Assembly (NCBI GenBank): GCA_951812805.1
Contig: CATOSZ010000001.1
Location: 1,116,001 to 1,180,000 of the forward strand
From: an uncultured Alphaproteobacteria bacterium
GTDB lineage: Bacteria; Pseudomonadota; Alphaproteobacteria; GCA-2731375
Direction of reading: 5' to 3'
Length of the DNA stretch: 64,000 nt
In this document: positions 10,150 through 37,369 of the stretch, one piece after another
How positions within the stretch are numbered: the stretch's first letter is position 1
Layout: every line of letters begins with the position of its first letter
The notes under the pieces: generated by a model
Seen by the model: the letters and a program-made list of their open reading frames with translations, nothing else
Told to the model about the DNA's origin: nothing
The model's database searches: none
Program-made: the position numbers and the translations under genes

Positions 10150-11456
10150 CTAGAGAATGAACTTCGAGAGATCGCTGTCGCGGGCGAGGTCGCCGACATG
10201 GATTTCGACATAGGCGGCATCGACGGTGATGGTCTGTCCACCGCGATCGGGCGCTTCGAAGCTGATGTCCTCCAGCACGCGTTCGAGGATCGTGTGCAGG
10301 CGACGGGCGCCGATGTTCTCGACGTTGGCGTTGACCTCGGCCGCCAGCTTGGCGAGGGCGTCGACACCGTCGTCTGTGAACTCCAGCATCACCTCTTCCG
10401 CACCGATCAATGCCACATACTGGCGGGTCAGGCTGGCCTCCGGCTCGGTCAGGATCCGCTTCAGATCGTCGACCGTCAGCGCCTCAAGCTCGACGCGGAT
10501 CGGCAACCGGCCCTGCAGTTCCGGCAGCAGGTCGGCGGGCTTCGCCTGATGGAAGGCACCCGAGGCGATGAACAGGATATGGTCCGTCTTGATCGTGCCG
10601 TGCTTGGTCGACACCGAGGTGCCCTCGATCAGCGGCAGCAGGTCGCGCTGCACGCCTTCGCGGCTGACGTCGGCGCCCTGCCGATCGGAGCGCGCGGTGA
10701 TCTTGTCGATCTCGTCCAGGAAGACGATGCCGTTCTCTTCGACTGCGATCAGCGCCTCGCGTACCGCCTGTTCCTCGTCGATCAGCTTGTCGCTCTCCTC
10801 CGCCATCAGGATCTCGTAGGAATCGGAAACGTTCATCCGCTTGCGCTTGGTCCGCGCGCCGCCGAGCGCCTTGCCCAGCATATCGTTCAGATTGATCATG
10901 CCCATCTGCGCGCCGGGCATGCCGGGAATGTCGAAGGACGGCATGCCGCCGCCGCTGTCGGCCACCTCGAGCTCGATCTCCTTCTCGGAGAGCGAGCCGT
11001 CGCGCAGGCGTTGGCGGAACGCCTCCCGCGTGCTCTGGCTCGCGTTCGACCCGACCAGGGCATCGAGAACCCGTTCCTCGGCACCGATTTCGGCCTTGGC
11101 CTGAACCTCGGCCCGGCGCCGGTCGCGCACCATCGAGATCGCCACCTCGACGAGATCGCGGATGATCTGCTCGACATCGCGTCCGACATAGCCGACTTCG
11201 GTGAACTTCGTCGCCTCCACCTTGATGAAGGGGGCACCGGCGAGGCGGGCGAGCCGGCGGGAGATTTCCGTCTTGCCGACGCCGGTCGGGCCGATCATCA
11301 GGATATTCTTCGGCAGGACCTCTTCGCGCAGCCCTTCTTCCAGCTGCATGCGCCGCCAGCGGTTGCGCAGGGCGATGGCGACGGCGCGCTTGGCGTCGCC
11401 CTGGCCGACGATATAGCGGTCCAGCTCGGAGACGATTTCGCGGGGGCTGAAGTCCG

Positions 11457-33746: not shown

Positions 33747-34934
33747 CTATTCCGAGAGCGGCGGCAACGCCGGCAGAAGCGAAGCATCCGATTCCGCCGG
33801 CGGCGGACCGGCTTGGGACGACGTCGGGGACGGCGTCGCTTGCGGCGATGTTGTACCGGCGAGCGCCGCGCGCAGCCGTTTCTCCAGCTCGGCCGACGGC
33901 TGTCCGGTCACGGGCAAGCCAGAATCGCGCTGATAGGCCGTGATCGCCGCGCCGGTTCGCCGGCCCATCAGGCCATCGGCGACGCCCGGCTCGTAGCCGA
34001 GACGCAGCAATGCCTCCTGCACACGCCGGACCTGCCGTCGATCCGCCCGCCCGGTGGCGGGTTTAGCCGTCTGGCTACGGGACGCCGTTTGCGACGTGCT
34101 GGATGCGCTCGGCCTCGCGCCGGCACTCGTTCCGCCTTCGAGGCGTTTCAGTCGCTGAGCGGCGCGCGGGTCGCCGAGATTGCGCGCCACCGCGAGCCAA
34201 TGGCGCGCCAGGGCGTCGTCCCTGGGGACGCCGGACCCCTCGGAGTAGGCATTGGCGAGCGAGACGCCGGCGGGCGCATGTCCGCTGAGCGCGGACAGCA
34301 TGAAATAGAGGTTCGCCGCGCTCGGGTTGGCGTCGACGTTGACGCCGTCCCGGTAGAATTCGGCCAGCAGGAACTGCGCCCGGGCGTTGCCGACCTGGGC
34401 GGCGATGGAGATCTGTTCGAAAGCCTTGGCATCGTCGCCGGCCGACAGCGCCGCCTCCCCCGCCGTCACCAATTTTTCCGCTTCACGAAGATAGCGCCGT
34501 CGAAGCCGGCGGGGGTCGTCGACCCGTTGCGGGGTCGCGGGCACGTAGATCTGCTCGCCGCCGCGGAAGATCGTCAGCTCGAGCGCCCTCCCCGCCGCGT
34601 TTGCCACCAGGCGATCGGCCAGCTCGCGCGTGCCGGAGATCGCGGTGCTGTCGATCTCGAGGATGATGTCGAAGGGCCAGAGGCCGGCCCGTGCCGCCGG
34701 CGAATCCGGAAGGACGCCGCGAATGAGAATACCGCGCCGCTCCGACGCGTCGAGCAGCGTGGCCGCGGCTGCATTCAGGTCGATCCCGCCGATCCCGAGC
34801 CAGGGCCGGCCTTGCGCCAGGGCCATGCCGGCGGTGAGGTGCAGGCACAACAGCAGAAGGCCGACGATACCGTGCCGGCACCACCATCGGTGATTGCGGC
34901 ACCCACGTGGCGGGGCGGTGCTGTTTCGCCGCAT
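33747..34934 (-). CDS. Exported PDZ - Sel1 - peptidoglycan-binding protein
   Basis: A 395-residue protein. An N-terminal hydrophobic segment (IVGLLLLCLHLTAGMALAQ) is a signal peptide or anchor. A PDZ-like domain follows (GILIRGVLPDSPAARAGLWPFDIILEID, about residues 60-140). Sel1/TPR-like repeats come next (AKAFEQISIAAQVGNARAQFLLAEFY and two more, about 160-265). A peptidoglycan-binding type-1 domain (VRRVQEALLRLGYEPGVADGLMGRRT, about 310-365) and a Pro/Ser tail close it. The ATG at 34934 has GGAGGG 8 bases upstream. It lies between a secreted unknown and the large interrupted exported gene on one strand. The domain mix suggests a periplasmic, wall-associated adaptor (inference). Confidence 0.85.
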   Translation of the reverse strand: MRRNSTAPPRGCRNHRWWCRHGIVGLLLLCLHLTAGMALAQGRPWLGIGGIDLNAAAATLLDASERRGILIRGVLPDSPAARAGLWPFDIILEIDSTAISGTRELADRLVANAAGRALELTIFRGGEQIYVPATPQRVDDPRRLRRRYLREAEKLVTAGEAALSAGDDAKAFEQISIAAQVGNARAQFLLAEFYRDGVNVDANPSAANLYFMLSALSGHAPAGVSLANAYSEGSGVPRDDALARHWLAVARNLGDPRAAQRLKRLEGGTSAGARPSASSTSQTASRSQTAKPATGRADRRQVRRVQEALLRLGYEPGVADGLMGRRTGAAITAYQRDSGLPVTGQPSAELEKRLRAALAGTTSPQATPSPTSSQAGPPPAESDASLLPALPPLSE

Positions 34935-34973
34935 CGCTTCGCCCTCCGATCCCCTATCCACCAGCCGCTCGGA

Positions 34974-36235: not shown

Positions 36236-36268
36236 GCACTTCGGAGATAGGGGTGGTCGCCCGGGATT

Positions 36269-36538
36269 TAGCCCGTATTTCTCACACCCTCCATGGCCTC
36301 AGTCGACCTGGGCCGAGTCGGCTCGGCGAGGTGCGGGCCCGAAAGCTTAGCGGGGCTACGTCGAGGGACCGCGCCTCGCCGAACGGCCGGCCCAGGTCGA
36401 CCCTCCGGGCGGCGCTGTTGGCCCGACAGGGGGCGTCGCACTGCTTGTACGATGAACCACATCGAACGGCGCAGTGCTCCTACCCTGTCGGGCCGACAGC
36501 GCCGCTGAGGCCGTGGAGGGTGTGAGAAATGCGGGCTA
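36269..36538. repeat. 270-bp three-way-junction (cloverleaf) inverted-repeat element
   Basis: Three nested stems make one structure. The outer arms are 34 bases each (36269-36302 and 36505-36538) and differ at two positions, both of which leave G-T/G-U pairs when read on the plus strand. Arm 1 pairs 36303-36331 with 36374-36400 around a 42-base loop. Arm 2 pairs 36411-36443 with 36472-36503 around a 28-base loop. The element begins TAGCCCG and ends CGGGCTA, so TA could be a target duplication. It encodes no convincing protein. It lies between the exported-protein operon and DUF2182 and supplies the DUF2182 stop codon. It could be a non-autonomous mobile element or a structured RNA; I cannot tell which. 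Confidence 0.8.
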
Positions 36539-37369
36539 CGCGAGCGCGCCGAACAGCAACAGCGCGCCCCAGGCCATCAGGCCGACGCCGGCGGCCGAGC
36601 CGAGCCAGTGGCCGCGCGGGATGGTTTTCTCCGCCAGGACGAAGAGGGCGAGGCCGGCGATCCAATAGAGGTTCATCACCCCGCCGTAGAACAGCAACGC
36701 CATCAGCACCCAGCAGCAGCCGAGGCAGAAGGCGCCGTGCTCGAGGCCCATGGTGAAAGCACCGAGGCGGCCCTTGCGCCACCGGTGCGAGAGAAAGTCG
36801 AGCGGGGAGCGACAATGGCGCAGGCAGGCCTGCTTCAGCGGCGTCAACTGCCAAATCCCGGCCGCCAGCAGAAGCCCGCCGCCGAGCGCGGCGCTGGTGC
36901 TCGCCATCATCGAGGACAGCAGTTCCGCCCGCTCCAGCCCCCATTGCAAGGCGGTCGCCAGCAGACTGAACGCCCCCCAGACCGCGAGATAGCCGGCGGC
37001 GAATATGCCCGTCGGTACGATCGGCGCATCGCGTTCGCGCTGGCGCCGGTCGATGCGGGCATAGAGCAGGATCATCGGCGCCGCGCTCGGCAGCATCATC
37101 GCGACCATCATGACCCACCACATGACCAGCATGAGCAACGCATAGCGGGGCGTCCAGGCGGCGGGCTGCATCGCCATCGCCGCCATCTTCGCCATGCCCC
37201 CCATGGCCGATCCGTCCTTGCCGGCCATCGACGTCATCTCGAAGGCGCTCATCCCCATGCCGGCGCCGGTCAGGATATAGAGCCAGGAGAGCGCGGCGAC
37301 CGCGATGAGGCCACCGATGACGATGATCCGGTCGCGGCGCAGCACGGCTTCCAACGGGCTTGTCGACAT
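36536..37369 (-). CDS. DUF2182 family membrane protein
   Basis: A 277-residue integral membrane protein with about seven hydrophobic segments and many methionines (GMAKMAAMAMQP, WWVMMVAMMLPSAAP). Signature stretches are LKQACLRHCRSP and GLEHGAFCLGCCWVLM, whose His and Cys suggest metal binding, as is proposed for the family. It follows the DUF1326 gene by 9 bases; the two families are often neighbours, so a joint role is likely, but the function is unknown. Its TAG stop is made of the last three bases of the cloverleaf repeat. Confidence 0.87.
   Translation of the reverse strand: MSTSPLEAVLRRDRIIVIGGLIAVAALSWLYILTGAGMGMSAFEMTSMAGKDGSAMGGMAKMAAMAMQPAAWTPRYALLMLVMWWVMMVAMMLPSAAPMILLYARIDRRQRERDAPIVPTGIFAAGYLAVWGAFSLLATALQWGLERAELLSSMMASTSAALGGGLLLAAGIWQLTPLKQACLRHCRSPLDFLSHRWRKGRLGAFTMGLEHGAFCLGCCWVLMALLFYGGVMNLYWIAGLALFVLAEKTIPRGHWLGSAAGVGLMAWGALLLFGALA

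Follow-up and report, generated by a model that had tools for sequence, protein, structure and literature searches.

An element of 270 bp in the window, the whole 64,000-nucleotide stretch of DNA analysed here, folds into a cloverleaf, and its interior belongs with a conserved structure found well beyond its own genome. Dispersed copies, IS1380-type ends, a conserved fold with conserved loops, a strand bias and an exchange of ends were all computed directly from the sequences. We give an even chance to the reading that the element is a MITE with IS1380-type ends that would be moved in trans, and that its conserved cloverleaf is selected as a folded single strand, most likely RNA.

The first-pass annotation had described a 270-bp cloverleaf at 36269–36538, and this was confirmed, the 94% complementary outer stem of 34 bp enclosing two long arms (Table 1). 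The three-way junction it reported holds if a mini-hairpin at 36402–36408 is ignored, but the junction becomes four-way once that hairpin is counted. Both mismatches in the outer stem are T·G and would be G-U pairs on the plus strand, as had been stated. RNA folding of both strands, proposed in the same annotation, gave −225.4 kcal/mol for the plus strand compared to −125.1 ± 5.1 for shuffled sequences (z = −19.6) and −206 kcal/mol for the minus strand (z = −16.9). Both strands are far more stable than chance, and the 270-bp structure is real. With Rfam at gathering thresholds, no family was matched in the window or in 15 loci with related elements, and sub-threshold matches were weak and of microRNA type only. 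A search of plasmid and phage databases with the window's own element gave no match. The end of the element provides the TAG stop codon of a PpoB2-like gene on the minus strand. Gene context assigned by a codon-composition heuristic, which is unreliable, was of mixed orientations. Near this neighborhood, positions 33747–34961 of the minus strand encode a protein with PDZ, Sel1 and peptidoglycan-binding domains.

Table 1 Parts of the element and the adjoining gene, in window positions
Feature	Position	Strand	Remarks
Outer stem P1, 5′ side	36269..36302	+	34 nt, 94% complementary; pairs with 36505..36538
Arm 1 (P2), long hairpin	36302..36401 (about)	+	Probable inverted counterpart of H, diverged in own genome
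Mini-hairpin CCTCCGG between arms (CCCTTCGGG in relatives)	36402..36408	+	RNA fold; comparable hairpin in spacers of paired loci
Arm 2 (P3), contains 79-nt hairpin H	36409..36505 (about)	+	Fold, stem search
Hairpin H	36418..36496	+	Model R1, 89.2 bits, E = 1.7e-21
Outer stem P1, 3′ side, also second terminal inverted repeat	36505..36538	+	
Gene, PF09948 PpoB2	36536..37369	-	Neighbor; stop codon from element end

The 79-nt hairpin H in arm 2 has a conserved apical loop and two conserved internal loops, and nearly all of its stem pairs vary with compensation. The loops, GCGTYG/KCCTA, TTG/CNGC and the apical NNCCR, are nearly fixed. In alignment A2, an essentially gapless set of 24 arms over 79 columns taken across genera, the layered stem of 14 + 7 + 7 bp was paired in 87.8% of cells compared to 61.8% in shuffles, and every one of the 21 pairs in helices 1 and 2 had changed on both sides. 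Double changes occupied 178 cells (56 in shuffles), and covariation was 0.61 compared to 0.15, a level reached by none of 500 shuffles; when the partner was slid by 1–3 columns as a control, 31–48% of cells were paired. A covariance model of H (R1), which recovered arm 2 of the window, matched 44 of 385 alphaproteobacterial genomes or species, covering 30 families, and at least 11 genomes of 7 families outside the Alphaproteobacteria. In the large R1 searches, 11–12 matches per genome were scored, so copy numbers are lower bounds. A sequence pattern drawn from the arm-2 tip was found in 15 of 289 genomes, with up to 47 matches in one, and its reversed control gave 0; a few of these matches stood alone and lacked the fold (L178, L179), and the rest had the same plan with different stems. 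With the G006 element as query, plasmid matches numbered two only, in Agrobacterium sp. MA01 and Thalassospira marina, and in both plasmids the H site lay between annotated genes. A contig classed as viral (IMG/VR 2648501770_000001, L166) carries three H hairpins within 660 bp at 10781–11439, the first two of which form an inverted pair.

H and an inverted copy of it occurred together in 40 loci, separated by a gap of 23–39 bp (median 25; two gaps at 38–39 and the rest at 23–29) that holds a mini-hairpin. An outer stem usually surrounds the pair, giving about 265–275 bp overall, and in the loci examined the inverted partner was usually on the 5′ side of H. Clean elements located through the arm-2 tip pattern were about 261–282 bp long. 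In the window, arm 1 scored only 10.7 bits with R1 and is barely like H; in relatives, arm 1 scored 37–43 bits on the opposite strand (L043 and L046 of G001, L032 of G004), and it is through these two genomes that the window's own arm 1 can be read as a diverged, inverted version of H. Palindromy by itself gives the complement of an arm about 20–27 bits with R1, and weak opposite-strand matches were not counted as arm 1. The element is quasi-palindromic, in that either strand, read 5′ to 3′, runs through outer stem, complement of H, mini-hairpin, H and outer stem. Since the two hairpins are inverted copies, either strand offers the complement of H as its 5′ arm.

The arms are kept at 73–82% identity in relatives of the same family (G001, G004), and G009, G289 and others have only short hairpin-tip motifs in common with the element. 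Most related elements start with TAGAGC and finish with GCTCTA, unlike the IS1380-type ends, and the genome of the window holds both end types. The interior of the element is more widely spread than its ends. The window's genome also contains another cloverleaf subfamily, with three copies (L100, L098 and L099, on contig C3 of G000 at ~103580, 691660 and 1194230), which has the ends CTAGAGC...GCTCTAG, a different arm 1 and an arm 2 closely similar to that of the element.

On a selected folded strand, G·U pairs are tolerated and A·C mismatches are not. In helix 2, the middle helix of H, mismatches read on the H strand were A·C in 35 cases and G·U in 3 (p = 7e-8) when each combination of genome, column and type was counted once, and 11:3 when each combination of column and type was. 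This excess of A·C makes the complement of H the favored folded strand, and the bias is conservative because R1 favors G·U and its training sequences came from the H strand. Helix 1 was without bias (36:44), hinting that it is the upper part of the hairpin that is recognized. An unbiased outer stem is expected, since that stem has no direction, and its mismatches over all elements were without bias (21 G-U, 18 A-C). The two G-U pairs of the outer stem had been taken as a hint that the RNA form matters. That hint is weak for the outer stem by itself (21:18). Copies in the same genome, taken over the whole structure, do lean toward G-U on the plus strand (21 compared to 7 distinct pair types). 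Covariation and the helix-2 bias both support a role for the single-strand fold, and selection seems to act on this fold and not only on mobility.

Our preference for RNA as the folded strand rests on the extreme stability of the RNA fold and on the position of several elements directly at gene ends. Since the stop codon of the PpoB2-like gene lies inside the element, a read-through transcript would carry the element as its 3′ UTR. In the mechanism we propose, an IS1380-family DDE transposase would recognize, or would once have recognized, the termini in trans and insert the element at CTAG-like sites. The cloverleaf module would be a member of a superfamily across Pseudomonadota, composed of an outer stem of ~35 bp, an inverted hairpin, a mini-hairpin and H, and selection would act on it in its folded, single-stranded form. 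That strand would most likely be RNA arising by read-through from neighboring genes, and a host protein or nuclease may bind the conserved loops, for example so that insertions in 3′ UTRs are processed or tolerated. Both the choice of RNA over single-stranded DNA and the existence of such a binding partner are unproven, and we infer them.

G·T wobbles are tolerated in DNA hairpins too, so the strand bias is no proof of RNA and is equally compatible with a folded DNA strand. It is possible, if unlikely, that the single-stranded DNA form is what matters, with hairpin pairs serving as recognition sites for a hairpin-binding recombinase (REPIN/RAYT-like or other) at work in replication or transfer, and with the ends secondary. 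The inverted hairpin pairs are similar to REP dimers, which have also been described within longer palindromes (PMC3733652). Y1 transposase genes were somewhat commoner in H-positive genomes (15 of 44 compared to 58 of 341; p = 0.013, with genome size uncontrolled). Against this reading, 10 of 19 genomes with at least 9 H matches had no match to Y1_Tnp (PF01797), no tag of the GTAG kind recurs at a fixed place in the elements, and no dedicated gene lies beside them in the loci read. Dependence on RAYT was rejected as a requirement, and the Y1 association is weak.

Within its own genome (7.42 Mb, 19 contigs, 98.5% complete), the 270-bp element has 11 full-length copies at 88–100% identity. The genome search that the first-pass annotation had called for thus yielded 11 full copies, 3 shorter derivatives and ~12 solo ends. 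Ten of the 11 full copies have distinct flanks, and L010 and L011, whose flanks are common, represent one duplicated site; homology between copies ends abruptly at CTA-GCCCG...CGGGC-TAG. Dispersed copies with such sharp common ends substantiate the earlier view of a non-autonomous mobile-type repeat, and a short length (270 bp, within a limit of 500 bp), no coding capacity and many dispersed copies place the element among MITEs. The derivatives, of 196, 177 and 162 bp, have lost arm 2 wholly or partly and kept a paired outer stem, and the solo ends, about a dozen, retain 30–60 bp of one terminus. In L103, L104 and L105 the deletions take arm 2 or its tip as if cut at the hairpin base, and the stems stay paired. 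Solo ends L088–L097, L101 and L102 adjoin genes without a partner end. At L091 (1700–2007), half an element is followed by another long palindrome with CTGGATTGCCACGC and GCGAGCGAAGCGTGACGACCC, which resembles a common alphaproteobacterial repeat.

Among the 11 full copies, 97.7% of cells are still paired, and the proposed covariation analysis found compensated changes above shuffles, with changes on both sides in 21 of 115 pairs compared to 9.1; in the outer stem, 10 of 33 pairs covary. Dispersed copies, IS1380-type ends and deletion derivatives at palindromes would also be expected of a plain IS1380-derived MITE, with a functionless fold whose palindromes are kept by hairpin-templated correction (template switching or gene conversion), a process that can yield compensated palindrome changes without selection. 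We regard this explanation as improbable, and it is already disfavored by three observations. Correction perfects palindromes, yet H retains non-complementary, fixed internal loops over 30 families. Hairpin-templated correction cannot yield the 35:3 strand bias, and the occurrence of the same core with unrelated ends at constant size also speaks against it.

The ends of the element, CTAGCCCGNATTTCTCACAC, are those of intact insertion sequences of ~1.65 kb in other Alphaproteobacteria that belong to the IS1380 family. A search of 289 alphaproteobacterial genomes with the end-sequence pattern recovered end pairs 1646–1648 bp apart that enclose a PF13701 transposase (E = 1e-155), which we take to be the transposase of the IS1380 family. 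These insertion sequences end in CTAGCCCGGATTTCTCA(C/A)AC compared to CTAGCCCG(C/T)ATTTCTCACAC for the element, and 19 of the terminal 20 bp are identical between the element consensus and the G070 insertion sequence. The 5′ terminal inverted repeat of IS1380 type consists of the first 20 bp and the preceding base, TTAGCCCGTATTTCTCACAC. Eight insertion sequence copies in G080 were flanked by CTAG on both sides in six cases, by CTAA...CTAA in one and by TTAG...TTAG in one. The direct repeats CTAA and TTAG, in L202 and L224, identify these four bases as the duplicated target. The CTAG, CTAA and TTAG flanks of the IS1380-family copies L202–L225 in G080 may be useful in defining the target-site rule of that family.

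Given the match to the insertion sequence ends and the 4-bp repeats, the ends of the element are, on the evidence of sequence, of IS1380 type, and TA appears to be part of a CTAG target. Most MITE copies are flanked by CTAG at either end, a sequence that is at once a direct repeat and a palindrome; the flanks of the other copies are not direct repeats, and exact direct repeats are CTAG alone. The target site of the window copy has decayed to TTAG (36268–36271) and CTAC (36536–36539). The annotation had proposed a mariner-like TA duplication, which these data do not support, and had named a match to the ends of a known insertion sequence as the finding that would make the element a known derivative; such a match was found, to the IS1380 family. 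A mariner/IS630-type MITE with TA duplication, suggested by the TA at both ends of most copies, is highly improbable and was rejected, since the terminal 20 bp match IS1380-family elements, intact IS1380 copies repeat the four bases CTAG, CTAA or TTAG, and TA is missing at the ends of L003, L005, L010 and L011. PF13701, the IS1380 transposase domain, had no match in the 98.5% complete genome of the window, and an old MITE does not strictly need a resident transposase. As its ends are best read, the element would have been mobilized in trans by an IS1380-type transposase.

Bacterial MITEs and REPs are usually seen as passive palindromes. Loops and geometry that are kept across orders, with stems and ends free to vary, are typical of a folded nucleic acid that has a function. 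We see evenly balanced prospects for a broader proposal, that of a phylum-wide class of mobile elements whose transposon ends have been repeatedly exchanged and whose defining feature is a conserved folded strand made up of two inverted 79-nt hairpins with fixed loops and a mini-hairpin. If this is true, one structured RNA or single-stranded DNA module rides different transposases. H is a defined motif that lends itself to testing, for which a covariance model and hundreds of copies exist, and it can be used to ask which host factor or enzyme recognizes such repeats; the H model offers a route to annotating many unlabelled intergenic repeats.

Several known repeat systems bear comparison. The dimers of CGTC/GTAG-tagged REPs are like the element in their inverted hairpin pairs, structured spacers, alphaproteobacterial spread and location at gene ends (PMC3733652). 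CGTC REPs have stems of 8–9 bp starting with AT, loops of 4–5 nt and a CCA tail (PMC3733652), whereas H has a layered stem of 14 + 7 + 7 bp with conserved internal loops and none of the CGTC-REP marks; the A2 consensus and structure differ from the definition in that paper, and H is not a member. Br-REP1 of Bradyrhizobium has three stem-loops, lies in 3′ UTRs and has been seen as RNA (PMC5082802), and its consensus, CCGGAATCTCGAGATTCCGG, is unrelated to H. REPINs with RAYT transposases reportedly join two inverted hairpins into a single mobile unit (PMC3116915), an arrangement that the element shares. Unlike REPINs, the element has the terminal inverted repeats of a DDE-type insertion sequence, and many H-rich genomes are without a Y1 transposase. 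No account of an H-bearing cloverleaf was found in the part of the literature searched. The Caulobacter CIR repeats are reportedly long intergenic inverted repeats in alphaproteobacteria, a description that also fits the element. GAGTC, a site of CcrM type, is present in arm 1 of nearly all copies in the window's genome. The closest likeness in the termini is to IS1380 insertion sequences and their MITEs, with which the element has in common the terminal 20 bp, the 4-bp CTAG-like flanks and dispersed copies; their interior is unrelated, and the cloverleaf of the element is also found with other ends.
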